DNA from: Sulfurospirillum sp.
GTDB lineage: Bacteria; Campylobacterota; Campylobacteria; Campylobacterales; Arcobacteraceae
Assembly: GCA_030491005.1 (NCBI GenBank)
Contig: JAKZMJ010000026.1
Coordinates: 1-64,000, forward strand
Reading direction: 5' to 3'
DNA length: 64,000 nt
Below, in pieces: positions 15,524 through 28,451 of the stretch (the stretch's first letter is position 1; the number at the start of each line of letters is the position of its first letter). A program made the position numbers and the translations under genes. Under the pieces are notes generated by a model. That model did no database searches, was not told where the DNA came from, and worked only from the letters and a program-made list of their open reading frames with translations.

Positions 15524-18500
15524 ATGTCAAAACTCTCATTTACCCCCCCCCACAACGATACTGTAGAAACACACAGTAAAAAGTCAAGGTTGGATTTTAA
15601 ATCTAATTCAAAACCTAATTTTATGTATAACTTGAAGTCTAAGCTTAAAGCAAAGCTTCGCTTATCTCTCTTAAGCTTATTTAGTTTAGTTTTCATAGCT
15701 TGTGGAGGAGGTGGTGGTGGCAGTAGTGGTTCTGTTGCTAGTAGTACTAAAAGTGACACATCTATTCATGATAGTGCTGTACAAGGTTTAGATTATATTT
15801 TAAAATCCAAAAATATTATTACGCAAGAAGGTGTAACTAAAGCAGGTGGTATCTTTGCATATGCTTCTAGTGATGAAAGTGTTACTTTTAAATTAGCTAC
15901 TTTAGACTTAGGTACTTTTGACTTCCATAAGATGAAAGCTGATAAAAAGATATTAGTAGGAGAAGTCTTAGGTCTTGAAAGAACTAATACTACGAATAAA
16001 GAATTAATCAAAATCTTAAGAGTTTTACAAACTTTAGATGATAATAGCGATGAAGATATCATACATATAAATAATGATATAAAAGATAGTATAAAAGAAT
16101 ATATGCCAAATACTACAAGTATAAAAGACTTAGATATAGAAAAACTAAGAGAATTAGTTAAAAAAGTATCTACAAAAGATTTAATAAGTGAGCTACTTGC
16201 AGTAAATCATTATCAAAAAACGATAAATGATTTAGATACTAGCAGTACGATAAAACTAGTATCAGCTAAACTAGTTGGTGCTTCATCTATGTCTACTTCT
16301 AAAGCAACAGCTGAATGGATAGACGCTATTGGAGATAAGCTTACTTATGATGTTCATATTTCTACTACTGATAACTTTATTCCAAGTAGGGCTAATTTTA
16401 AATTAAATACTTCTAAAAACTTTAGCCACATAGATGGTTTAACAAAAGACACAAGATATTATATAGCTATTGTTTCAAAAAGTGCTTCTTCTAAAGTAAC
16501 TTCTAATTATCTTTCTTTTAGCACAGCTAGTTATGACCCTGTATTAAAAGCTAATATTAATATTCATGAGTCAACATCTGTACTTACAAATGATTCTGCA
16601 ACAATTGAATCTAACATTAAAGAAGATGACTTTATTTTTTCAACAAAAAATAACGCTCAGTATCTAAAAAAAGTATCAACAGTTACAGCAGGAGCTAATG
16701 GCTCTTCAAGTGCTACAGTAAAAAAAGCCACACTAAGAGATGTATATGATGATATATCATTTAGTACTACTATAAAAATGCAAGAAGTAACTAGCAAACA
16801 AGCAATAAGTAGTAAAACATCATCAAAAATATCTGCATTAAGTGTAAAATCAAGAAATAATATACAAAACCATCAGTATAAATGGGGTTCTGGTCTTTCT
16901 ATGTCTTCTTCTAATTTTGCTAATACTTCAAAGCCTGCAAAACATACAAATAACACTCAATCAAGCCAAGCTGTAAAAGTCAATCAATCAGAAGATGAAG
17001 AAGAAAGTGACACAGCTAGTTATTTTAAATCAAGCATAGGTTCAGGTTATGCTACAAGTGTTGGTGAGAGTATAAACCTAGCTATTAAGATAGAAAATCT
17101 AGGCGAAAGAAAAAATTATGAGTTTGATGGAACCAGTGAAGATAGCGATGCTAAGATAGCTATTAATAAAAAATTGTGTGAAGCAAATAATGGTACTTTT
17201 TGGGATGATGGCAATTTTGCCTTCAATGATGATAGCGAATGTAGAAATATGCCTGTAACACTTTGTAAAATAGAAGCCAGTCTTAAGATTAAAAGTTTTC
17301 CCAAAGGTGCTTCTAAATCTAACCTTCCATATATAAAAGTTGATAATAATATTCCATATATTAAATGGTCTCCAATTAGTAGCAATGTTGATAGCAAGCA
17401 AGGAGACCCTTATATAGGAAATATTCTCATAGATACGACAGCTGGTATTTTTTGTGGAAGAAGTAATCAAAGCCAAAGAAATGGTAAGGAAAAACTATTT
17501 AGAGGAATAGAGCCAAAGATAAATCTTAACGGTATTGAATTTTTAGCAACTAATCCACTACCAAATGGTGCAATAGCTTTAAATGATTCTGAGAAGAATG
17601 TTATTTTTGATAAAAATGGTTTTAAAATTAGCAATACCTTTGTAGCAGATTTTACTCCAGAAATTGAGTTTAACTTTATCGTTAAGCGTGGTTCTTTACA
17701 AAAAGGTGAGGCTAATATAAAATCGACATTAAAATTAAGAGATGTTTTAGAAGTATCTATTGAAAAAGAGGGTAAATATACCTTTAATCCTAAACCCATT
17801 TATACCAAACAATTTACTAAAGTCTTTCCAGCAGGACCTGTACCTGTAGTGGTCATTGGAAGATTGCGTTTAATGGCTGTAGCAGAAGTAGAAGCCTCAG
17901 GAAAATTAGAAGCTAGCTTAGATTTATCTTCAACATTAGATATGAATGTAGATATCCACTATAATACCTCAACTAAAAAATGGGAAGTTAATACAGGTAA
18001 AGACTTAACTTACGATATTAAAGCAGGTGGTAAAGGCGACGCCCTAGCAACTGTTACTATTCGTATTATTCCTTCTTTTGAACTATCAGTATATGACTTA
18101 GTAGCAGCACATACTGTATTAGAACCTTATATATACTCTACTTTAGGTATACAAGGAGAAATAAATGCACAATTAAAAGGAAATTTAAATGATAGCCAAG
18201 TAATAACAGATGCATCTATTCAATTTACCAAGCTAGAAGCTGGTGCTGGCATGGACTTTAAAGTTTATGTAGGTGCTGCTTTTGATGTTAGTGATTCATT
18301 TGTAACACTAGCTTGGCCAGAAGATGCAGTTTTTGCATCTAGTAAGCTACCTTCTATTAACACCTCATTTATGAATAGTGCAATTGTAAAAGAATATTAT
18401 GAAGCAACTAAGACATATAATACATATCATATTATTCCTAAAACTAGAATTGTAGGTATACCTGATATAAGTGTTAATTTTGATGCTAGTGCTACTCCAC

Positions 18501-20965
18501 CTGAGAGTATTAATTCTCGTGCAATAAAATTAATACCAAAATGTGATGAAGTTATCAATCCTTTATTTAAAATTGGCTTAGGTAAAAAGTCATACATAAC
18601 TTGTGCGAAATGGAGCAGTGAAAACATAACTTCTAATTTTGATTTAATAAAAGAAGATAAATATTATTGGATGGTACCAAAAGCTAATGACAATGGAAAT
18701 TACCAAAAAATAAAATTTCGTTTAGTAAATAACTCCAGTTTAGGGTGGGCTAGACAATACAAAACTATAGAATATGAAGATATAAATATAAGCCAAGGAC
18801 TACCTACATATTGGATAAATAGATATGACTTAAGCTTAAGTAATGGAGACTTTGACGATGACGGTATTAGTGATAATGATGAATTTAAAAACGGTACAAA
18901 CCCAAGAGTTAAAAATATATCAAAACCAAACATAGCTTCTGTTTTACCAGCAAAAAACTTAACTGTAGGAGCATTAATAGCACCTATATCGTTTACAAAT
19001 ACAGGAGGAGCTATAATATCTTGTCTAAGTAGTCAAGCATTACCAACAGGGCTAAGTATATCTGATACTTGTGTTATATCAGGCACACCAACGACAGAGC
19101 AAAGTGCAAAAACCTATAGCATTACTGCAAGTAATGAAAAAGGAAGCTCTACAGCTAGTATTAGCTTAGAAATTACTGCACAAGCTATCACAGCTGTACC
19201 CACAAACCTAAGTGCAGTTTCAGGTAATGGGCAAGTAAGCTTATCTTGGAATGCTGTAAGTGGTGCTACTTATAACTTGTATTATGGAACTAACACTATT
19301 ACAGATATAAGCTTAGCAAGTCTTTCAAAAGTACCAAATATAAGCACAAATACTAAGACAATTACAAACTTAACAAACGATACAAAGTATTATTTTGTAA
19401 TAACAGCAGTAAAAGATAGTATAGAAAGTGTAAAAAGCAATGAAGTAAATGCAAGTCCAAGCCTAAAAGTAGTAAAAGACATATGTAAAGTAGACAAATC
19501 AGAACACGGCTTAGCTAGTATGTTATTTGACCTAGATGAAACAACAGCCTCTTATGATAACCCTGGATATGTAAAAGGCTCATATCTATTTGCACCTTAT
19601 GCACACCTAATAACAGGTATGCAAGCTCATGCAGGTATAGACTTTAGAACAAAAGATGGTGCAAATGCGGGACGCCATAAAGTATATTCTTTAAGTAGTG
19701 GAGAAGTAGTAAAAGCTGAAAACGGTACAAACTATGGAGCTGTAGGAATAAAAACTACGAATAAAGAAAATGAAAATATAGTTATATTCTATTCACACCT
19801 AGACTCAACAACTTTAAGTGTAGGTGATGAGGTAGAAATAGGGACTCTTATAGGCTTAAGTGGTAAGAAAGGCACAAAAGCACCTCACTTGCACTTAGAA
19901 TATAGAGTAAATTATACTAGCAATTTTATGCTAGGAGCTAAAAGTTGTACTAATGATGATTGTTCAATAGCAGAGATTAAAACACTCACAAACGACCCCA
20001 TAGAACTATTGTCTTTAACTTGTACACAAGCTATCACAGCTGTACCCACAAACCTAAGTGCAGTTTCAAGCGATGGGCAAGTAAGCCTATCTTGGAATGC
20101 TGTAAGTGGAGCTACATATAACTTATATTATGGAACTAACACTATTACAGATATAAGCTCATCAAGTCTTACAAAAATATCAACTATAAGTACAAATACT
20201 AAGACAATTACAAACTTAACAAACGATACAAAGTATTATTTTGTAATAACAGCAGTAAAAGATAATATAGAAAGCCTAAAAAGCACACAAGTAAACTCTA
20301 TACCAAAAGCTGTAGTAGTTAGCCCTAGTAATTCTAAGCTAAATGATACAGGAATTACTTGGGGAGGAGTGTATCCAAAAGGAAATAATAGAACTTGTAC
20401 AAGTAACATATCTGCTCCACAAGACTGCCATACAGGAAGAGATAAATCAGGAAGTACTGGCTTTGATTTTACAAGATTAGACTCTAATGGTTCTACTCAT
20501 AGTGGCAGTGCTTATTCTACAAGTCCTTGGTCTTGTGTAAGAGATAATGTCACAGGATTAGTATGGGAAGTTAAAACAAACGACGGAACTATTCACGATA
20601 AAGACAAGACTTATAAATGGGGAGGAATAAGTGCCATAGGTAAAAACCATGCAAGTAAAGAAGGTACATATTATAACGACTGGAATTCTTTAGTAAATGG
20701 AGCAAAGAATGCTAGCCTTTGTGGCTTTAATGACTGGAGAGTCCCAAAGAAAGAAGAGCTAAGAAGCATAGTGCATTATGGTAGACATAATCCGTCTATT
20801 GATACAGCATATTTTCCAAATACTGTTTCCTCATCTTTTTGGTCTAGCTCGCCTAATTCTTACAATTCTAACGTTTCGTGGTATGTCTTCTTCGGCTATG
20901 GCTACGATAGCTACAACTATCGGAACGATGGTAGAGCGGTTCGTTTAGTGCGGGGAGGAGAGTGA
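15524..20965 (+). CDS. DGR target protein 1: giant surface lipoprotein with M23, FN3 and variable DUF1566 domains
   Basis: A 1813-residue predicted surface lipoprotein. A signal sequence around residues 34-60 ends in the lipobox FIAC and is followed by a Gly/Ser linker. Much of residues 60-1100 is unrecognised. Then follow an Asp-rich calcium-type repeat (about 1104-1127), a putative-Ig (He_PIG-like) domain (about 1136-1221), FN3-like repeat 1 (about 1222-1312), a LytM/M23 domain with His1369, Asp1373 and HxH 1455-1457, FN3-like repeat 2 (about 1502-1594), and a C-terminal DUF1566/C-type-lectin-like domain (about 1673-1813). The last 44 residues are DGR variable region VR1. The start at 15524 has an AGGAA site, but a C9 tract at codons 7-10 and a second Met at residue 34 (15623), just before the signal peptide, make the N-terminus uncertain. 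Ligand unknown. Confidence 0.9.
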   Translation: MSKLSFTPPHNDTVETHSKKSRLDFKSNSKPNFMYNLKSKLKAKLRLSLLSLFSLVFIACGGGGGGSSGSVASSTKSDTSIHDSAVQGLDYILKSKNIITQEGVTKAGGIFAYASSDESVTFKLATLDLGTFDFHKMKADKKILVGEVLGLERTNTTNKELIKILRVLQTLDDNSDEDIIHINNDIKDSIKEYMPNTTSIKDLDIEKLRELVKKVSTKDLISELLAVNHYQKTINDLDTSSTIKLVSAKLVGASSMSTSKATAEWIDAIGDKLTYDVHISTTDNFIPSRANFKLNTSKNFSHIDGLTKDTRYYIAIVSKSASSKVTSNYLSFSTASYDPVLKANINIHESTSVLTNDSATIESNIKEDDFIFSTKNNAQYLKKVSTVTAGANGSSSATVKKATLRDVYDDISFSTTIKMQEVTSKQAISSKTSSKISALSVKSRNNIQNHQYKWGSGLSMSSSNFANTSKPAKHTNNTQSSQAVKVNQSEDEEESDTASYFKSSIGSGYATSVGESINLAIKIENLGERKNYEFDGTSEDSDAKIAINKKLCEANNGTFWDDGNFAFNDDSECRNMPVTLCKIEASLKIKSFPKGASKSNLPYIKVDNNIPYIKWSPISSNVDSKQGDPYIGNILIDTTAGIFCGRSNQSQRNGKEKLFRGIEPKINLNGIEFLATNPLPNGAIALNDSEKNVIFDKNGFKISNTFVADFTPEIEFNFIVKRGSLQKGEANIKSTLKLRDVLEVSIEKEGKYTFNPKPIYTKQFTKVFPAGPVPVVVIGRLRLMAVAEVEASGKLEASLDLSSTLDMNVDIHYNTSTKKWEVNTGKDLTYDIKAGGKGDALATVTIRIIPSFELSVYDLVAAHTVLEPYIYSTLGIQGEINAQLKGNLNDSQVITDASIQFTKLEAGAGMDFKVYVGAAFDVSDSFVTLAWPEDAVFASSKLPSINTSFMNSAIVKEYYEATKTYNTYHIIPKTRIVGIPDISVNFDASATPPESINSRAIKLIPKCDEVINPLFKIGLGKKSYITCAKWSSENITSNFDLIKEDKYYWMVPKANDNGNYQKIKFRLVNNSSLGWARQYKTIEYEDINISQGLPTYWINRYDLSLSNGDFDDDGISDNDEFKNGTNPRVKNISKPNIASVLPAKNLTVGALIAPISFTNTGGAIISCLSSQALPTGLSISDTCVISGTPTTEQSAKTYSITASNEKGSSTASISLEITAQAITAVPTNLSAVSGNGQVSLSWNAVSGATYNLYYGTNTITDISLASLSKVPNISTNTKTITNLTNDTKYYFVITAVKDSIESVKSNEVNASPSLKVVKDICKVDKSEHGLASMLFDLDETTASYDNPGYVKGSYLFAPYAHLITGMQAHAGIDFRTKDGANAGRHKVYSLSSGEVVKAENGTNYGAVGIKTTNKENENIVIFYSHLDSTTLSVGDEVEIGTLIGLSGKKGTKAPHLHLEYRVNYTSNFMLGAKSCTNDDCSIAEIKTLTNDPIELLSLTCTQAITAVPTNLSAVSSDGQVSLSWNAVSGATYNLYYGTNTITDISSSSLTKISTISTNTKTITNLTNDTKYYFVITAVKDNIESLKSTQVNSIPKAVVVSPSNSKLNDTGITWGGVYPKGNNRTCTSNISAPQDCHTGRDKSGSTGFDFTRLDSNGSTHSGSAYSTSPWSCVRDNVTGLVWEVKTNDGTIHDKDKTYKWGGISAIGKNHASKEGTYYNDWNSLVNGAKNASLCGFNDWRVPKKEELRSIVHYGRHNPSIDTAYFPNTVSSSFWSSSPNSYNSNVSWYVFFGYGYDSYNYRNDGRAVRLVRGGE
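15543..15551 (+). repeat. C9 homopolymer tract inside the target 1 reading frame
   Basis: Nine consecutive C residues lie 19 bases after the first base of the start codon, encoding Thr-Pro-Pro-His. It is the only G/C homopolymer of this length noticed in this very AT-rich window. Gain or loss of one or two C would frameshift the 1813-residue protein unless translation restarts at 15623. Poly-C/G tracts of this size are the usual phase-variation switch in Campylobacterota. Confidence 0.85.
20833..20963 (+). repeat. DGR variable region 1 (VR1)
   Basis: 131 nt co-linear with TR 21657-21787 without gaps. Between the shared 5' part (ATCTTTTTGGTCTAGC) and the invariant 28-nt 3' end (20936-20963), 16 of 37 TR adenines are replaced in VR1 (to T or G) and no other base is changed. 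The only non-adenine difference in the aligned segment is two bases further 5' (TR GGG, VR TCG). The changes turn AAC/AAT codons of the template into Tyr, Phe, Gly, Ser, Val and Asp codons. This is the hallmark of adenine-specific mutagenic retrohoming. Confidence 0.97.
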
Positions 20966-20967
20966 TT

Positions 20968-21000
20968 TAAGGCTTTAGCCTTAAGTTCTTTTTTATTTTG
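20968..21000 (+). terminator. Hairpin downstream of VR1 (terminator and possible DGR cruciform)
   Basis: TTAAGGC-TTTA-GCCTTAA, a 7-bp stem with a 4-nt loop, starts directly after the target 1 stop codon and is followed by GTTC and a T-run. The same hairpin and T-run follow VR2 but not the TR. In the Bordetella phage DGR a short hairpin just downstream of the VR promotes homing, so this could have that role as well as, or instead of, termination. Confidence 0.7.
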
Positions 21001-21009
21001 CTCTTTTGT

Positions 21010-21050
21010 TTTTAAGCCTTTAAGCATAGGCTTAAAAGTCGATTTTTTTT
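21010..21050 (+). terminator. Strong intrinsic terminator between target 1 and avd
   Basis: TTTTAAGCCT (21010-21019) pairs with AGGCTTAAAA (21028-21037) around an 8-nt loop, followed by GTCGA and eight T residues. It should separate target 1 transcription from avd. A degenerate version of this block appears downstream of VR2 near 24090-24125, suggesting the two VR 3' flanks share ancestry. Confidence 0.7.
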
Positions 21051-21131
21051 AAAACGAAGAGTAGGAATATAAAAAAAAGAATTAAGTAAAATATAAAGAA
21101 AGATAAACAATAAATAAAAAGGATAAAAGAG

Positions 21132-21506
21132 ATGTCATATCATAAAAAGTTCCCTATTTATAACGACACTATGTCTTTAGTGTTACTAATAGAAAAAATA
21201 GTTAGCACCTTTCCAAGGTATCATAAATATGCCTTGGGTACAAAGATACGAACTGATGCCTATGATATCTTAGATGCCATAACTTTTAGCCTTAATAATA
21301 AAGAAAGTAGAATACAAAGTATACAAAAAGCTCACAGAATAAGTGAGACTTTGAAAAACAAAATAAGCCTTGCAAAAAGCATCACAAATCTTAGCTTTAA
21401 AGCTTTTGATGAAATAGCAAGGCTTTTAATAAAAATATCCAGCCAATGTAAGGCTTGGATGAAACACCTAGAAAAACAACGCTTGAATGAAAATAATTAT
21501 GCCTAA
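21132..21506 (+). CDS. avd: DGR accessory variability determinant (Avd-like)
   Basis: A 124-residue, mostly helical, basic protein placed between the target gene and the TR, as avd is in the Bordetella phage element. The pattern (long amphipathic helices with LLIEKIVSTFPRYHKYALG at the start) matches the S23/Avd four-helix-bundle family. In known DGRs, Avd forms a pentamer that binds the reverse transcriptase and the TR RNA and is required for cDNA synthesis. An AAGGAT site precedes the ATG. The call rests on position and family pattern together. Confidence 0.85.
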   Translation: MSYHKKFPIYNDTMSLVLLIEKIVSTFPRYHKYALGTKIRTDAYDILDAITFSLNNKESRIQSIQKAHRISETLKNKISLAKSITNLSFKAFDEIARLLIKISSQCKAWMKHLEKQRLNENNYA

Positions 21507-21653
21507 TTATTCTCAGTATGCGATTATCACTCTGAGACTTGATTACCACTTTAATATATTATTTAATACATTATTTGGTTTAAAACAGCGATTAAACTAC
21601 CAAAGAAATATTCTATGGATGTTTGAAAGTATAAAAAATATCAAGAAAATTAT

Positions 21654-21787
21654 CAGATCTTTTTGGTCTAGCGGGCCTAATTCTAACAATTCTAACAATT
21701 CGTGGAATGTCAACTTCAACAATGGCAACGATAACAACAACAATCGGAACAATGATAAAGCGGTTCGTTTAGTGCGGGGAGGAGAGT
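21654..21787 (+). repeat. DGR template repeat (TR)
   Basis: This 134-nt segment lies between avd and the reverse transcriptase gene and is near-identical to the 3' ends of both target genes except at adenines. It is strongly enriched in AAC/AAT triplets in the reading frame used by the VRs, which is the template design that gives maximal amino-acid diversity when A is randomised. Its 3' 28 nt (21760-21787) match both VRs exactly, then TR has A where both VRs have G. Its last bases (GGAGGAG, 21778-21784) also form the Shine-Dalgarno of the reverse transcriptase gene. Confidence 0.97.
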
Positions 21788-21790
21788 AAT

Positions 21791-23278
21791 ATGAAAGTAG
21801 CAAGTAAAGATATCTATAAAGCATATCAAAAGTGCCACAAGGGCAAAAAAGGGACACTAAAAGCACAAGTATATTCTGCAAAACTATTAGATAACATTCT
21901 TGCTACAACTATACAATTAAATACAAATACCTATAAAGCAAAAGCCTATAGTACATTTATAGCAAAAAACGGCTCAAAACCAAGAGAGATATTCGCAGCA
22001 AACTTTAAAGATAGAGTAGTCCATCACTTTATAGTACCCCACTTAGAAAAACTAATATCTCATAAGTTCATACATAGTAGCTGTGCTAATCAAAAAGGAA
22101 AAGGAACGCACTTCGGAGTAGATATCTTACAAAAGATGATGAGAGTATCTGTGAATAAAGATAAACAAACTTATTATTTACAATTAGATATATTTAACTT
22201 TTTCTATAGTATTAATAAAAATATATTATTGGCTGTATTAAAAGCACACTTCAAAATAGCTGTTAAAAACAAACAAATCAATGAGCAAAGAGTGCATGAG
22301 TATTATGAACTATGTCAAGCTATTTTAATAAAACCAAAAGCAGACAACAAGCTAAATAAAGAACAGCTAAATAACATAGCAGAACATAAGCAACTAAGAA
22401 AGCTAAAAGAGCATATAGGCTTACCAATAGGGAACCTAAGCTCACAGTTTTTTGCAAATGTTTACCTTCATGAGCTAGACTGCTTCATCAAGCATACGCT
22501 AAAGATAAAGCCTTATGTGCGCTTTGTTGATGACTTTGTGATACTTCATCATGATAAAGAACAGTTAAAATCTTGGCAAAAACAAATCGAAGTTTTTCTA
22601 AAAGATAAGCTAGACCTAAGGCTTAAAGATGAAAAAATCTTAAAGCCTATTTCAAGTGGGGTTGATTTCTTGGGTTATATTACCTACCCTTATCATAAAT
22701 TAGTACGAAAAAGAGTCGTGCATAACTTTTATGTAAAACTAAAGCTATGGTATGAGGAAAATACTTCTATACAAAATGCTAGAGTTTTGTTCGATTTAGA
22801 CTCTGTCAATTTAAACAAACTCAATGCTTTGTTTTTTTCATACCTTGGGCATATACAACACGCAAAGTCTTATAAAATCATCTCAAATAAATTTAGACAA
22901 TTTCCTTATTTGAAATTGTTCTTTTATTTAAAAGATGACAAATATCAAAGCACAGCTTATAATAAACATGCCTCTAAGTTCTCCCATCAGAGATACTTCT
23001 TTAATACTATATTTAAAAACTTTAGTATTTTAATACAAAAAGGAACTTGCTTTTTAGTAAGCACTTATAGCATACATGACAATAAAAGGTACCATATAAA
23101 AGAAGAATTTACGCTAAACAAACTAGATGAGACTTTTCAAAACTTACAAAATGACAATCAAAGTTATATATATGTAAGTGAACAAGGTTTTGTTCACAAT
23201 GCTTTAAAACAAAGAAAATTAAGATATATCTTTATATCAAATCACATACATCATAATACAAAGGAATATATATGTTAA
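21791..23278 (+). CDS. DGR reverse transcriptase
   Basis: A 495-residue reverse transcriptase. The palm motif A is LQLDIFNFF (Asp133). The DGR-specific motif 4 is LPIGNLSSQF (residues 211-220), where other RTs have QGxxxSP. The catalytic pair is in RFVDDFV (Asp247-Asp248), then a thumb with GVDFLGY. These signatures identify DGR RTs, which copy TR RNA into adenine-mutagenised cDNA. Typical DGR RTs have about 300-400 residues; here residues about 330-495 form an extra, unassigned basic C-terminal region. The ATG follows the TR by three bases and the stop overlaps the target 2 start by seven bases, so RT and target 2 are translationally coupled. Confidence 0.96.
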   Translation: MKVASKDIYKAYQKCHKGKKGTLKAQVYSAKLLDNILATTIQLNTNTYKAKAYSTFIAKNGSKPREIFAANFKDRVVHHFIVPHLEKLISHKFIHSSCANQKGKGTHFGVDILQKMMRVSVNKDKQTYYLQLDIFNFFYSINKNILLAVLKAHFKIAVKNKQINEQRVHEYYELCQAILIKPKADNKLNKEQLNNIAEHKQLRKLKEHIGLPIGNLSSQFFANVYLHELDCFIKHTLKIKPYVRFVDDFVILHHDKEQLKSWQKQIEVFLKDKLDLRLKDEKILKPISSGVDFLGYITYPYHKLVRKRVVHNFYVKLKLWYEENTSIQNARVLFDLDSVNLNKLNALFFSYLGHIQHAKSYKIISNKFRQFPYLKLFFYLKDDKYQSTAYNKHASKFSHQRYFFNTIFKNFSILIQKGTCFLVSTYSIHDNKRYHIKEEFTLNKLDETFQNLQNDNQSYIYVSEQGFVHNALKQRKLRYIFISNHIHHNTKEYIC

Positions 23279-23811
23279 ACATCAAAAAACTATCTTTAGT
23301 CTTACTTGCTACTTTTAGCCTTGGCTTTAACTGCATGCTTTATGCCCAAACTTGTAAATCTTATATAACAGATGAATGGCAAGACAGTAGGTATACAGAC
23401 CACAGTAATGGTATAATAAGTGATAACAATACTAAACTTATATGGAAAAAATGTAGCCAAGGGCAGACCTTTAGTGGTGGAACTTGTACAGGAAGTGCCA
23501 TAACTATGAACTGGAAAGAAGCACTAGTAAGTGCAAAAACTATAAATGATGCTAGTGGCTTTGCAACTTACAATGACTGGAGAGTACCAAATATAAAAGA
23601 ACTTAGCTCCTTGGTATCTCTTAGGTGCCATAGTCCAAGTATCAATGCAAGTGTGTTTCCAAATACTCCTTCCAGATCTTTTTGGTCTAGCTCGCCTTAT
23701 TCTTATTATAATCCTGGCATTTCGTGGAATGTCTACTTCGACGATGGCGACGTTTACGGCAACAATCGGAACAATGATGAAGCGGTTCGTTTAGTGCGGG
23801 GAGGAGAGTGA
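23272..23811 (+). CDS. DGR target protein 2: exported DUF1566 variable protein
   Basis: A 179-residue protein with an N-terminal hydrophobic signal sequence (about residues 5-25, ending MLYAQ, a likely signal peptidase I site). It is followed by a single DUF1566/Lcl C-type-lectin-like domain containing NDWRVPNIKELSSL and ending in FWSSSP...AVRLVRGGE. The last ~46 residues are VR2, so the protein displays a diversified surface on a compact secreted or periplasmic domain without the large scaffold of target 1. The start lies inside the last seven bases of the RT gene. Its binding partner is unknown. Confidence 0.93.
   Translation: MLNIKKLSLVLLATFSLGFNCMLYAQTCKSYITDEWQDSRYTDHSNGIISDNNTKLIWKKCSQGQTFSGGTCTGSAITMNWKEALVSAKTINDASGFATYNDWRVPNIKELSSLVSLRCHSPSINASVFPNTPSRSFWSSSPYSYYNPGISWNVYFDDGDVYGNNRNNDEAVRLVRGGE
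23673..23809 (+). repeat. DGR variable region 2 (VR2)
   Basis: 137 nt aligned to TR 21654-21787, with one extra codon and a few non-adenine differences in the 5' third (TR block 21678-21698). In the last 22 codons before the invariant 3' end, 10 positions differ, all at TR adenines. The 5' start (CAGATCTTTTTGGTCTAGC) and the 28-nt 3' end are identical to the TR. It shares TCG with VR1 where the TR has GGG, marking the 5' limit of information transfer. Confidence 0.95.
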
Positions 23812-23842
23812 TTTAAGGCTTTAGCCTTAAGTTCTTTTTTAT
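23812..23842 (+). terminator. Hairpin downstream of VR2 (terminator and possible DGR cruciform)
   Basis: TTAAGGC-TTTA-GCCTTAA plus GTTCTTTTTTATTTT follows the target 2 stop and is identical to the element after VR1. It is a likely intrinsic terminator for the avd-RT-target 2 transcript and a candidate homing hairpin. Confidence 0.7.
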
Positions 23843-24245: not shown

Positions 24246-24854
24246 ATGATGATAACAAAAGAAGATTTAACACAAGCGATATTAGATATGGGAAATAGAT
24301 TAGAAAAATCTAACAATGAATTAAATATATCTCATAATAAACTAGCAGAATCTCAAGCAAAAACAGATGAACAGATGAAAAAAACAGATGAACAGATGAA
24401 ACAAACAGATGAACAGATGAAAAAAACAGATGCCAGATTAGATAGAGTAGCTAAACTAGTAGGCAATATATCTAATAATCAAGGAGATATAGCAGAAGAG
24501 TTTTTTTGGAATACAATATCTTCAAGTCCTATATTAAATGGTATAAAATATGATTCTTCACATAAAAATGCACATAAAAGAATAGGTGATACAGAAGATG
24601 AATATGATATCTTAATGGTAAATGGAAAAGATATAGCTATTATAGAAGTGAAATATAAAGCACATACGAAAGATATAAAAAGACTCATCAATGAAAAGTA
24701 TACAAACTTTAAAAAACTATATTTAGAATATAAGAATTATCATCATCACTTAGCCTTGGCTAGTTTTAATATCAATGATGATGTAAAAAAAATGGCTAAA
24801 GAAAATAATGTTTTATTATTACAAAGAAAAGGCGACTTAATAGAAACTATCTAA
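24246..24854 (+). CDS. Tandem array copy 1: coiled-coil PD-(D/E)XK-like protein
   Basis: A 202-residue protein. The N-terminal part (about 20-75) is a coiled coil with a seven-residue repeat TDEQMKK (three copies, one as TDEQMKQ). The C-terminal part has a PD-(D/E)XK-like core: Glu in GDIAEEFF, Asp in DEYDILMVNGKD, then the IEVKY strand supplying E-x-K, as in Holliday-resolvase-like and restriction-type nucleases. This copy has the type A central block (FWNTISSSPILNG...KNAHKRIG). It resembles DUF3782-like proteins, but no activity has been shown from sequence. It is the first of seven head-to-tail copies with 54-bp gaps. Confidence 0.8.
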   Translation: MMITKEDLTQAILDMGNRLEKSNNELNISHNKLAESQAKTDEQMKKTDEQMKQTDEQMKKTDARLDRVAKLVGNISNNQGDIAEEFFWNTISSSPILNGIKYDSSHKNAHKRIGDTEDEYDILMVNGKDIAIIEVKYKAHTKDIKRLINEKYTNFKKLYLEYKNYHHHLALASFNINDDVKKMAKENNVLLLQRKGDLIETI

Positions 24855-24872
24855 ATCTTTATTTTTAAGATA

Positions 24873-24881
24873 TGTTATAAT
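24873..24881 (+). promoter_or_regulatory. Repeated extended -10 promoter in the array gaps
   Basis: Each 54-bp gap carries the same TATGTTATAATGTACTAT segment with TGT-TATAAT (here TATAAT at 24876-24881, next at 25518-25523, and so on) and an AAAGG ribosome-binding site five bases before ATGATG. Every copy therefore appears to carry its own promoter and start signals. Confidence 0.55.
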
Positions 24882-24908
24882 GTACTATTAGAGTATACAA
24901 AGGTATAA

Positions 24909-25496
24909 ATGATGATAACAAAAGAAGATTTAACACAAGCTATCTTAGATATGGGAAATAGATTAGAAAAATCTAACAATAAATTAAATATATCTCATAA
25001 TAAACTAGCAGAATCTCAAGCAAAAACAGATGAACAGATGAAAAAAACAGATGAACAGATGAAAAAAACAGATGCCAGATTAGATAGAGTAGCTAAACTA
25101 GTAGGCAATATATCTAATAATCAAGGAGATATAGCAGAAGAGTTTTTTTGGAATACAATATCTTCAAGTCCTATATTAAATGGTATAAAATATGATTCTT
25201 CACATAAAAATGCACATAAAAGAATAGGTGATATAGAAGATGAATATGATATCTTAATGGTAAATGGAAAAGATATAGCTATTATAGAAGTGAAATATAA
25301 AGCACATACTAAAGATATAAAAAGACTCATCAATGAAAAGTATACAAACTTTAAAAAACTATATTTAGAATATAAGAATTATCATCATCACTTAGCCTTG
25401 GCTAGTTTTAATATCAATGATGATGTAAAAAAAATGGCTAAAGAAAATAATGTTTTATTATTACAAAGAAAAGGCGACTTAATTGAAACTATCTAA
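24909..25496 (+). CDS. Tandem array copy 2: coiled-coil PD-(D/E)XK-like protein
   Basis: A 195-residue copy almost identical to copy 1, differing mainly by two instead of three TDEQMKK-type heptads and by NKLNIS for NELNIS. It has the type A central block with GDIEDEYD. The catalytic-type residues (GDIAEEF, EYD, IEVK) are kept. The 54-bp gaps on both sides are the same as in the rest of the array. Confidence 0.8.
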   Translation: MMITKEDLTQAILDMGNRLEKSNNKLNISHNKLAESQAKTDEQMKKTDEQMKKTDARLDRVAKLVGNISNNQGDIAEEFFWNTISSSPILNGIKYDSSHKNAHKRIGDIEDEYDILMVNGKDIAIIEVKYKAHTKDIKRLINEKYTNFKKLYLEYKNYHHHLALASFNINDDVKKMAKENNVLLLQRKGDLIETI

Positions 25497-25550
25497 ATCT
25501 TTATTTTTAAGATATGTTATAATGTACTATTAGAGTATACAAAGGTATAA

Positions 25551-26075
25551 ATGATGATAACAAAAGAAGATTTAACACAAGCTATCTTAGATATGGGAAA
25601 TAGATTAGAAAAATCCCAAAAACAAACAGATGAACAGATGAAAAAAACAGATGCCAGATTAGATAGAGTAGCTAAACTAGTAGGCAATATATCTAATAAT
25701 CAAGGAGATATAGCAGAAGAGTTTTTTTGGAATACAATATCTTCAAGTCCTATATTAAATGGTATAAAATATGATTCTTCACATAAAAATGCACATAAAA
25801 GAATAGGTGATACAGAAGATGAATATGATATCTTAATGGTAAATGGAAAAGATATAGCTATTATAGAAGTGAAATATAAAGCACATACGAAAGATATAAA
25901 AAGACTCATCAATGAAAAGTATACAAACTTTAAAAAACTATATTTAGAATATAAGAATTATCATCATCACTTAGCCTTGGCTAGTTTTAATATCAATGAT
26001 GATGTAAAAAAAATGGCTAAAGAAAATAATGTTTTATTATTACAAAGAAAAGGCGACTTAATAGAAACTATCTAA
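25551..26075 (+). CDS. Tandem array copy 3: coiled-coil PD-(D/E)XK-like protein
   Basis: A 174-residue copy with a shortened coil: LEKSQKQ joins directly to a single TDEQMKK heptad. It has the type A central block with GDTEDEYD and a C-terminal half matching copy 1. All nuclease-like residues are present, so the length change only affects the coiled-coil arm. Confidence 0.8.
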   Translation: MMITKEDLTQAILDMGNRLEKSQKQTDEQMKKTDARLDRVAKLVGNISNNQGDIAEEFFWNTISSSPILNGIKYDSSHKNAHKRIGDTEDEYDILMVNGKDIAIIEVKYKAHTKDIKRLINEKYTNFKKLYLEYKNYHHHLALASFNINDDVKKMAKENNVLLLQRKGDLIETI

Positions 26076-26129
26076 ATCTTTATTTTTAAGATATGTTATA
26101 ATGTACTATTAGAGTATACAAAGGTATAA

Positions 26130-26696
26130 ATGATGATAACAAAAGAAGATTTAACACAAGCGATTTTGGATATGGGAAATAGATTAGAAAAATCTAACAA
26201 TGAATTAAATATATCTCATAATAAACTAGCAGAATCTCAAGCAAAAACAGATGAACAGATGAAAAAAACAGATGCCAGATTAGATAGAGTAGCTAAACTA
26301 GTAGGCAATATATCTAATAATCAAGGAGATATAGCAGAAGAGTTTTTTTATAATTCTATTAAAGCAAAACCTAGTTTAAATGGAATAACTTATGATTTTG
26401 TTGATAAAAATGTCACAAGAAATAAAAATAGTATAGAAGATGAATATGATATCTTAATGGTAAATGGTAAAGATATAGCTATTATAGAAGTAAAATATAA
26501 AGCACATACGAAAGATATAAAAAGACTCATCAATGAAAAGTATTCAAACTTTAAAAAACTATATTTAGAATATAAGAATTATAATCATCACTTAGCCTTG
26601 GCAAGTTTTAATATCAATGATGATGTAAAAAAAATGGCTAAAGAAAATAATGTTTTATTATTACAAAGAAAAGGAGATTTAATAGAAACTATCTAA
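26130..26696 (+). CDS. Tandem array copy 4: coiled-coil PD-(D/E)XK-like protein, central type B
   Basis: A 188-residue copy with one TDEQMKK heptad. The central block is the diverged type B (FYNSIKAKPSLNGITYDFVDKN, here cited only as FYNSIKAKPSLNG with RNKNSIEDEYD), set between segments nearly identical to the other copies. It also has YSNFKK and YNHHL in place of YTNFKK and YHHHL. This is a mosaic, as expected from recombination between copies. Confidence 0.8.
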   Translation: MMITKEDLTQAILDMGNRLEKSNNELNISHNKLAESQAKTDEQMKKTDARLDRVAKLVGNISNNQGDIAEEFFYNSIKAKPSLNGITYDFVDKNVTRNKNSIEDEYDILMVNGKDIAIIEVKYKAHTKDIKRLINEKYSNFKKLYLEYKNYNHHLALASFNINDDVKKMAKENNVLLLQRKGDLIETI

Positions 26697-26750
26697 ATCT
26701 TTATTTTTAAGATATGTTATAATGTACTATTAGAGTATACAAAGGTATAA

Positions 26751-27284
26751 ATGATGATAACAAAAGAAGATTTAACACAAGCGATTTTGGATTTGAAAAC
26801 ATCTCAATCAAAAACAGATGAACAGATGAAAAAAACAGATGAACAGATGAAAAAAACAGATGCCAGATTAGATAGAGTAGCTAAACTAGTAGGCAATATA
26901 TCTAATAATCAAGGAGATATAGCAGAAGAGTTTTTTTGGAATACAATATCTTCAAGTCCTATATTAAATGGTATAAAATATGATTCTTCACATAAAAATG
27001 CACATAAAAGAATAGGTGATATAGAAGATGAATATGATATCTTAATGGTAAATGGAAAAGATATAGCTATTATAGAAGTGAAATATAAAGCACATACTAA
27101 AGATATAAAAAGACTCATCAATGAAAAGTATACAAACTTTAAAAAACTATATTTAGAATATAAGAATTATCATCATCACTTAGCCTTGGCTAGTTTTAAT
27201 ATCAATGATGATGTAAAAAAAATGGCTAAAGAAAATAATGTTTTATTATTACAAAGAAAAGGCGACTTAATAGAAACTATCTAA
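26751..27284 (+). CDS. Tandem array copy 5: coiled-coil PD-(D/E)XK-like protein
   Basis: A 177-residue copy with a different N-terminal arm (ILDLKTSQSK in place of ILDMGNRLEKS), two TDEQMKK heptads and the type A central block with GDIEDEYD, as in copy 2. The DNA of its C-terminal half matches copy 2 more closely than its neighbour copy 4. Confidence 0.8.
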   Translation: MMITKEDLTQAILDLKTSQSKTDEQMKKTDEQMKKTDARLDRVAKLVGNISNNQGDIAEEFFWNTISSSPILNGIKYDSSHKNAHKRIGDIEDEYDILMVNGKDIAIIEVKYKAHTKDIKRLINEKYTNFKKLYLEYKNYHHHLALASFNINDDVKKMAKENNVLLLQRKGDLIETI

Positions 27285-27338
27285 ATCTTTATTTTTAAGA
27301 TATGTTATAATGTACTATTAGAGTATACAAAGGTATAA

Positions 27339-27884
27339 ATGATGATAACAAAAGAAGATTTAACACAAGCTATATTGGATATGGGAAATAGATTAGAAAA
27401 ATCTCACAATGAATTAGAAACATCTCAATCAAAAACAGATGAACAGATGAAAAAAACAGATACCAGATTAGATAGAGTAGCTAAACTAGTAGGCAATATA
27501 TCTAATAATCAAGGAGATATAGCAGAAGAGTTTTTTTGGAATACAATATCTTCAAATCCTATATTAAATGGTATAAAATATGATTCTTCACATAAAAATG
27601 CACATAAAAGAATAGGTGATACAGAAGATGAATATGATATATTAATGGTAAATGGAAAAGATATAGCTATTATAGAAGTGAAATATAAAGCACATACGAA
27701 AGATATAAAAAGACTCATCAATGAAAAGTATTCAAACTTTAAAAAACTATATTTAGAATATAAGAATTATAATCATCACTTAGCCTTGGCAAGTTTTAAT
27801 ATCAATGATGATGTAAAAAAAATGGCTAAAGAAAATAATGTTTTATTATTACAAAGAAAAGGAGATTTAATAGAAACTATCTAA
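27339..27884 (+). CDS. Tandem array copy 6: coiled-coil PD-(D/E)XK-like protein
   Basis: A 181-residue hybrid. The N-terminal arm joins the MGNRLEKS and TSQSK forms, with one heptad and TDTRL for TDARL. The central block is type A (SSNPILN variant) while the C-terminal part has the YSNFKK/YNHHL form otherwise seen with type B copies. This is direct evidence for reassortment of segments. Confidence 0.8.
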   Translation: MMITKEDLTQAILDMGNRLEKSHNELETSQSKTDEQMKKTDTRLDRVAKLVGNISNNQGDIAEEFFWNTISSNPILNGIKYDSSHKNAHKRIGDTEDEYDILMVNGKDIAIIEVKYKAHTKDIKRLINEKYSNFKKLYLEYKNYNHHLALASFNINDDVKKMAKENNVLLLQRKGDLIETI

Positions 27885-27938
27885 ATCTTTATTTTTAAGA
27901 TATGTTATAATGTACTATTAGAGTATACAAAGGTATAA

Positions 27939-28451
27939 ATGATGATAACAAAAGAAGATTTAACACAAGCGATTTTGGATTTGAAAACATCTCAATCAAA
28001 AACAGATGAACAGATGAAAAAAACAGATGCCAGATTAGATAGAGTAGCTAAACTAGTAGGAAATATATCGAATAATCAAGGAGATATAGCAGAAGAGTTT
28101 TTTTATAATTCTATTAAAGCAAAACCTAGTTTAAATGGAATAACTTATGATTTTGTTGATAAAAATGTCACAAGAAATAAAAATAGTATAGAAGATGAAT
28201 ATGATATCTTAATGGTAAATGGAAAAGATATAGCTATTATAGAAGTGAAATATAAAGCACATACGAAAGATATAAAAAGACTCATCAATGAAAAGTATTC
28301 AAACTTTAAAAAACTATATTTAGAATATAATACATATAATCATCACTTAGCCTTGGCTAGTTTTAATATCAATGATGATGTAAAAAAAATGGCTAAAGAA
28401 AATAATGTTTTATTATTACAAAGAAAAGGCGACTTAATAGAAACTATCTAA
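27939..28451 (+). CDS. Tandem array copy 7: coiled-coil PD-(D/E)XK-like protein, central type B
   Basis: A 170-residue copy, the last intact one. It combines the LKTSQSK arm of copy 5, one heptad, and the type B central block of copy 4, and has YNTYNHHL near the end. Its downstream sequence is not the usual 54-bp gap: after AATCTTTAT it changes at once to a fragment of the DGR reverse transcriptase gene. Confidence 0.8.
   Translation: MMITKEDLTQAILDLKTSQSKTDEQMKKTDARLDRVAKLVGNISNNQGDIAEEFFYNSIKAKPSLNGITYDFVDKNVTRNKNSIEDEYDILMVNGKDIAIIEVKYKAHTKDIKRLINEKYSNFKKLYLEYNTYNHHLALASFNINDDVKKMAKENNVLLLQRKGDLIETI

Follow-up and report, generated by a model that had tools for sequence, protein, structure and literature searches.

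A candidate RNA module upstream of the template repeat in a multi-target diversity-generating retroelement of Sulfurospirillum sp.

Introduction

Diversity-generating retroelements (DGRs) are bacterial cassettes that rewrite the 3' ends of surface-protein genes. An initial annotation of the 64,000-nt stretch of Sulfurospirillum sp. DNA analysed here (the window) proposed a complete two-target DGR, which raises the question of whether this locus is a genuine element and whether any part of it is new. Our analysis supports a genuine, chromosomal DGR. The element itself is of a known kind, and what is new is a putative RNA module 5' of its template repeat (TR), which seems to be widespread and is undescribed within the literature and RNA-family collections searched.

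Results

The cassette and its proteins

Identification of the locus as a DGR draws on the reverse transcriptase (RT) sequence, the RT tree, Avd, the layout of TR and variable repeats (VRs), the adenine-only mismatches and a predicted lectin fold. The cassette runs from target gene 1, ending in VR1, through avd, TR and RT to target gene 2, ending in VR2 (Table 1). This VR-avd-TR-RT(-VR) arrangement is also the usual one among relatives, and the TR/VR signature was present in most of those fetched (about 100 compared). A TR and two VRs, the latter at the 3' ends of two genes for DUF1566/C-type-lectin-like proteins, were found where the initial annotation had placed them, as were the IGNLSSQ and FVDD motifs by which it had recognized a DGR RT. 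The gene that it had called Avd-like matches Avd models, and its description of the host as Arcobacter-like agrees with the host family, Arcobacteraceae.

Table 1. Coordinates of the DGR features within the window
Feature	Position	Strand	Remarks
Target gene 1	15524..20965	+	1813 aa; fn3, Peptidase_M23 and C-terminal Lcl_C domains; lipobox LVFIAC
VR1	20833..20965	+	3' end of target gene 1; 17/20 mismatches at TR adenines
Hairpin after VR1	20967..20984	+	7-bp stem, 4-nt loop, directly past the stop codon, then a T-run
avd	21132..21506	+	Accessory gene; Avd profile matches
Structured RNA element 5' of TR (predicted)	21468..21645	+	Covariance model built without the window; unconstrained fold
Helix 1 of the RNA element	21480-82/21520-22	+	
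Helix 2 of the RNA element	21488-21499/21504-21515	+	Holds the avd stop and an ATG
Open frame	21499..21789	+	Begins at an ATG that overlaps the avd stop, crosses spacer and TR in the frame of the VRs and leaves 1 nt to the RT start
Closing helix of the RNA element	21538-43/21640-45	+	CUUGAU/AUCAAG; from a single-sequence unconstrained fold
TR	about 21656..21789	+	134 nt
IMH*-like 3' end of TR	21760..21787	+	Without adenine changes in VR1, VR2 and the C5 VR
DGR reverse transcriptase	21791..23278	+	495 aa; BPP-1 RT (8ub7) E 3e-32; tree
RT C-terminal domain	22940..23275	+	Diverged relative of the MutS-domain-I (MSL) domain in related DGR RTs
Target gene 2	23272..23811	+	Small protein; N-terminal signal-like segment, Lcl_C domain
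VR2	23675..23811	+	3' end of target gene 2; 15/19 mismatches at TR adenines
Hairpin after VR2	23813..23830	+	Identical to the hairpin after VR1

The best solved relative of the RT in the PDB was that of BPP-1, with LtrA next (E 5e-9). In a quickly built tree with a weak group II outgroup, the RT fell within a DGR-like clade of 54 rows (SH-aLRT 99), made up mostly of RTs from loci with TR/VR pairs and joined with BPP-1 at a support of 94, so that the phylogeny on which the initial annotation had let its reading depend agrees with it. Within this clade the window RT stands apart from the other Campylobacterota DGR RTs, and its nearest relatives come from uncultured proteobacteria and Aeromonas, suggesting a horizontal origin; a strong RT match was detected in only 4 of 397 Campylobacterota genomes. 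Searched as a single protein against viral contigs, the RT found no relatives, and the RT alignment used as the query did find them. Avd matched phrog_3206 (E 5e-13), NF033474 (E 6e-9, below its cut-off) and Pfam bAvd (E 1e-9, 0.7 bits under its cut-off).

The C-terminal 115 residues of the RT align with a domain that passes the Pfam MutS_I cut-off in seven relatives, and MutS chains ranked first in a fold search with this domain (E 0.1). MSL (MutS-like, Pfam PF01624) is a listed DGR accessory (PMC10053308); related RTs carry it as a C-terminal MutS domain I above the Pfam cut-off, whereas the window copy gave no PF01624 match and lacks the F-x-E mismatch motif. At the other end of the RT gene, a concealed RNA element was looked for in the 5' coding sequence and rejected, as relatives displayed no excess of synonymous-site conservation there.

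A structured RNA module 5' of TR

Covariation among relatives indicates that the avd-TR spacer is a conserved RNA structure. Nine such spacers, the window's among them, aligned to a 20-pair consensus in which compensatory cells numbered 33, compared with 10.4±2.5 in shuffles and at most 7 with the partners slid. The predicted module consists of a small helix, a variable hairpin, conserved GTGC, TGTGCG and ACC motifs and, closing against the 5' edge of TR, a helix of 8 bp. As a nine-sequence alignment could have overfitted, tests were made on non-seed loci, without a model and with the window left out. A covariance model of the nine loci (R1) matched further loci at the equivalent place, and in ten non-seed loci, taken with one weak and likely false match, pairing reached 92.6%, and compensatory cells numbered 64, compared with 18.8±3.4. 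From 18 sequences a second model (R2) was built, which added about 50 loci not in the original seed; these lie in bacterial genomes and in viral contigs. Models grown from the nine loci thus place the module in about 60 DGR loci across many phyla, among them the loci of the window, of further Campylobacterota and other proteobacteria, of Nitrospirota and Patescibacteria, and of viral contigs. In an alignment of 56 sequences, which, being built with a covariance model, favours that model's structure, 95.5% of cells were paired, compensatory cells numbered 422 against 123±11 in shuffles, and the covariation score was 0.93 compared with 0.27 in shuffles and at most 0.16 when slid.

The position of the module is tied to the template. 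Its end lay -4 to +50 nt from the TR start in 44 of the 45 non-seed matches with a known TR, whereas the avd stop fell anywhere from 4 to 158 nt into it. Furthermore, in two Patescibacteria loci (L073 and L078) TR lies downstream of RT, yet the module still precedes TR, and the Avd profile found no avd near it. These three observations argue that the module goes with TR and not with avd. A comparison that used no model gave a consistent picture: TGTGCG lay no more than 200 nt ahead of TR in 34 of 108 dereplicated non-seed loci, whereas a control region had it in 13 of 126, and a helix of 7 bp or more began immediately after the motif in 25 of those 34 (6.7 expected).

For the window itself, a third model, built without it, gave its best score in the 64 kb at 21468-21583 (28.3 bits, E 5.8e-5; next-best 14.1 bits), and an unconstrained fold of the spacer produced the same three-helix architecture; the covariance model misplaces the window's closing helix. 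This copy is divergent, with 28 bits and a folding z of only -1.5, and a whole-genome scan with R3 under strict filters missed it, which shows how weak it is. Across 60 related genomes scanned, the only strong matches were two DGR loci. Many DGR loci gave no match to the module, including most Xanthomonadaceae loci with short spacers. Rfam covariance models yielded only chance-level matches far below their gathering scores, and no description of the module was found in the literature searched, which consisted mainly of non-subscription papers.

We infer that the module belongs to the template RNP and acts there in recognition and/or as a stop. Its most likely role would be that of an RT-Avd binding platform and/or a barrier that ends reverse transcription at the 5' edge of TR.

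An open frame through spacer and template

In about a third of loci, the window among them, an open frame runs from the avd stop through TR. Among 97 dereplicated loci, the VR frame was open from the avd stop into TR in 43, against 18.8 expected (z 7.4), whilst the other two frames were open in 25 and 24, against about 19 expected (z 1.8 and 1.4). Starts coupled to the avd stop, mostly by a 4-nt overlap, opened into TR in the VR frame at 33 loci, compared with 9 and 3 in the other frames; these open-frame loci are related and hence not independent. Within Campylobacterota the VR frame was open in 9 of 11 loci (0.4 expected) and stayed in frame across at least 7 different spacer lengths. The RT lineage of the window is separate from that of the other Campylobacterota loci. 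Many module-bearing loci lack the open frame (L084, L085, L070 and L055).

No clear codon-level selection on the spacer/TR peptide was seen, and an excess at third codon positions was too weak to claim a functional TR peptide. With conservation of the peptide this unclear, coupled translation is a likelier explanation than a peptide with a function of its own, and the pattern suggests that in some DGRs, the window's included, ribosomes can pass through the template and so couple avd to RT expression. The frame might instead be a by-product: the match of TR to coding VRs would keep TR free of stops, and chance or common ancestry would account for the open spacer. The relatedness of the loci and the poorly conserved peptide fit such an origin, which we consider possible if doubtful, as it does not account for an enrichment confined to the VR frame or for Campylobacterota loci that remain in frame through so many spacer lengths.

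DiGReF defines a structural group 3, in which TR overlaps the annotated RT ORF (PMC3521204). Many relatives resemble this group in having TR within an open frame that runs into RT, whereas the window frame stops 1 nt before RT; translation of TR is not discussed in the text available of that paper.

Coupling of this kind bears on the main rival to a template role for the module, namely that it is an mRNA regulatory element, an attenuator or translation-control hairpin for avd and RT that acts outside the template RNP. Helix 2 often contains the avd stop and an ATG, and start-stop coupling is common, as such an element would have it. Nevertheless, we regard this reading as unlikely, since the element keeps its place relative to TR while the avd stop moves through it, and since in L073 and L078 it precedes a TR that lies downstream of RT with no avd detected nearby by profile.

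Targets, repeats and signs of activity

Both adjacent targets contain an Lcl_C domain (PF07603, formerly DUF1566) above the cut-off, and several Lcl_C paralogs occur in the genome. The true start of target gene 1 is perhaps Met34, at 15623. The predicted fold of target gene 2 matches the C-terminal domain of Legionella Lcl (8q4e, E 2e-5) and, weakly, many C-type lectins.

Mismatches between VR1 and the 134-nt TR concentrate at TR adenines (Table 1; hypergeometric p 4e-7). The initial annotation had counted 16 VR1 changes, all at TR adenines, in the 28 codons between the conserved flanks; over the last 90 nt every mismatch is indeed at an adenine (14 of 14, p 9e-8), and three non-A mismatches sit at the 5' edge. 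Its ten adenine-only changes near the 3' end of VR2 were recovered (10 of 10 in the last 90 nt, p 2e-5); the 5' part of VR2 has a 3-nt insertion and four non-A changes. None of the 32 changes at adenines in VR1 and VR2 is A-to-C, a type that makes up 15% over all relatives.

A search of the genome with TR revealed two further VRs, on contigs C33 (97-224) and C5 (210847-210905). The earlier count of two targets therefore stands for the adjacent genes and not for the genome, in which at least four VRs appear to share one TR. The genome, in 33 contigs at 97% completeness and 3.4% contamination, may be a MAG; the two remote contigs would then owe their assignment to binning. Contig C33 starts inside its target gene, and its VR, with 17 of 28 mismatches at A and changes in the 3' anchor (IMH) as well, appears to have drifted at non-A positions. 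The C5 VR differs from TR at adenines only over its last 50-odd nt, with indels further 5'. Its target gene (797 aa as called, with a TTG start) lies directly beside an IS3-family transposase, and no signal peptide was seen in the present frame; it is probably 5'-truncated on both counts. In all four VRs the TAA of TR is TGA, a single fixed A change that is better read as a constant IMH difference, and AGCTCG stands where TR reads AGCGGG. The IMH*-like end of TR also includes GGAGGAG at Shine-Dalgarno distance from the RT ATG. Indels and non-A changes cluster in the 5' halves of several VRs, a pattern that would suit conversion starting at the 3' anchor and often ending short of the 5' end.

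The hairpin that follows VR1 (DNA fold -5 kcal/mol, z -3.1) was also found after the C5 VR and, in weak form, after the C33 VR, and was absent after TR. It may be a BPP-1-like target hairpin and/or a terminator. As a general feature of DGRs the post-VR hairpin was rejected, showing no enrichment over TR flanks in 132 loci with the coordinates assigned here.

Ongoing diversification of VR1 and VR2, as the initial annotation had predicted, is plausible. A decayed element, with VR1 and VR2 as frozen relics of past homing, is quite improbable; the state of the C5 target, beside a transposase and with no visible signal peptide, and the several non-A changes of C33 would fit decay, whereas RT, Avd and both local targets are intact and the last 90 nt of VR1 and VR2 contain no non-A change at all. 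Ordinary duplication or gene conversion among the several Lcl_C paralogs, with adenine bias by chance, is rejected outright given the bias itself (p 4e-7 for VR1 and 2e-5 for VR2 across the full repeat), the adjacent DGR RT and Avd, the position of the RT inside the DGR clade and the same pattern in most relatives.

Discussion

Among the closest known systems is the BPP-1 DGR, which the window resembles in its RT, Avd, 134-nt TR, adenine mutagenesis pattern, VR in the end of a lectin-fold gene and hairpin after the VR (PMC3240598). The two differ in where the spacer lies. In BPP-1, TR directly adjoins the avd stop, and brt follows TR after a spacer of 144 nt, which is required for RT-Avd recruitment and cDNA priming (PMC12875486). 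In the window, by contrast, a 150-nt spacer separates avd from TR, only 1 nt lies between TR and the ATG of RT, and the conserved RNA sits on the 5' side of TR. With this 1-nt gap, a structured TR-RT spacer of the BPP-1 type is absent from the window and, since TR abuts the RT gene, an intergenic spacer of that type is impossible in the window's class. Most relatives share the window's spacer layout rather than that of BPP-1, and the first 20 kb of BPP-1, including its DGR, gave no model match to the module.

Sharing of one TR by several VRs in DUF1566 genes is known from Vibrio cholerae 1311-69 and Stenotrophomonas SKA14, and 28.6% of surveyed DGRs have multiple VRs (PMC6642488). The window is alike in having a single TR with several DUF1566 (Lcl_C) targets and differs in that two of its VRs lie on other contigs, at a distance from the cassette. 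Remote DGR targets are known and are usually missed by contig-based scans (PMC8144416).

Taking together the cassette parts, the adenine pattern, the extra VRs and the conserved RNA structure with its fixed position at TR, all as observed, the explanation that very probably holds is a chromosomal DGR with two adjacent and at least two remote targets and a TR-bearing RNA with a conserved 5' module. By analogy with BPP-1, one TR-carrying RNA would be reverse transcribed by RT with Avd, and errors would arise opposite TR adenines in the cDNA. The cDNA would then replace the 3' ends of target genes that share the IMH of TR, here the neighbouring pair of Lcl_C genes and no fewer than two genes elsewhere in the genome, with homing via the IMH and perhaps also the post-VR hairpin, again as in BPP-1. 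The same RNA is predicted to fold into the module immediately 5' of TR, putting the closing helix right where reverse transcription is expected to finish, at the 5' edge of TR; the module would recruit RT-Avd and/or halt reverse transcription, and ribosomes crossing the template would couple avd to RT expression. A bolder form of this proposal, which we hold tentatively as a live possibility, is that the RNA at the avd-TR junction is a conserved module, so far undescribed, which a large class of DGRs shares and which is the functional counterpart, across TR, of the BPP-1 3' spacer, that it both recruits RT-Avd and sets the cDNA stop, and that translation through module and TR then decides between use as mRNA and use as template.

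Within the literature examined, what is known of the DGR mechanism derives from BPP-1, in which the spacer between TR and brt is indispensable. Among the relatives sampled here, most lack a spacer of that type, and many carry conserved structure on the other side of TR. If the module is a template recognition and stop element, it would provide a search handle for TRs, remote ones included, would change the design of synthetic DGRs and would make the start and stop of cDNA synthesis in non-BPP-1 DGRs directly testable.

Remote targets and paralogs in the same genome

Beyond the cassette in the window, target genes of the same TR occur on two further contigs of the genome, C5 (L105) and C33 (L106). 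The L105 gene starts directly adjoining an IS3-family transposase and is probably truncated at its 5' end, with VR, IMH and hairpin all retained. The assembly break at L106 was probably caused by VR sequence common to several targets. A paralog of target gene 1, L107, has its lipoprotein start and Lcl_C part in separate frames and a 3' end unrelated to TR, and looks like a decayed non-target copy. L009-L012 represent the same two-domain Lcl_C gene, present on both contig C23 and contig C2 with equal scores, either through segmental duplication or assembly redundancy.

Features in the window and on other contigs of its genome (G000)
Feature	Position	Remark
RNA element motif counterpart	window, about 21531-21536	TCTGAG
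TR end and RT start	window 21776-21791	GGAGGAG
RT C-terminal relative of MutS domain I	window 22940-23275	diverged, without F-x-E
Tandem array, seven near-identical genes	window 24246-28451	54-nt spacers
L105, remote DGR target gene	G000:C5:207500-211018	
L106, DGR target gene	G000:C33, 2-226	contig starts within gene
L107, target gene 1 paralog	G000:C3, 2-931 and 1085-1612	

The array downstream of the cassette comprises genes sharing 92-99% DNA identity, separated by identical 54-nt spacers and encoding products of 170-202 aa. These genes differ in the number of TDEQMKK heptads, and their middle part occurs as two alleles. The array proteins contain an IEVKYK motif, which may point to a fold resembling PD-(D/E)XK; Pfam gave no confident match for them.

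Reverse transcriptases, RNA element and template end

A C-terminal MutS domain I is fused to many DGR RTs, with PF01624 above the Pfam cut-off (L027, L044, L056, L058, L063, L064 and L092). One Arcobacteraceae genome already carrying a window-type DGR (G013) encodes a second DGR-type RT (L203, contig C112), placed near the BPP-1 RT in the tree (SH-aLRT 99).

None of the 32 adenine changes in VR1 and VR2 of the window was A-to-C, a substitution accounting for 15% across relatives and also absent from several of them.

The RNA element consensus includes TGTGCG, and its conserved GUGCG matches GUGYG, the consensus at the 5' end of group II introns, either by chance or through ancestry. The G-rich TR end is spaced from the RT start as a Shine-Dalgarno sequence would be. 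Binding of ribosomes may therefore compete there with the initiation of cDNA synthesis, as is known for LtrA and intron domain IV.
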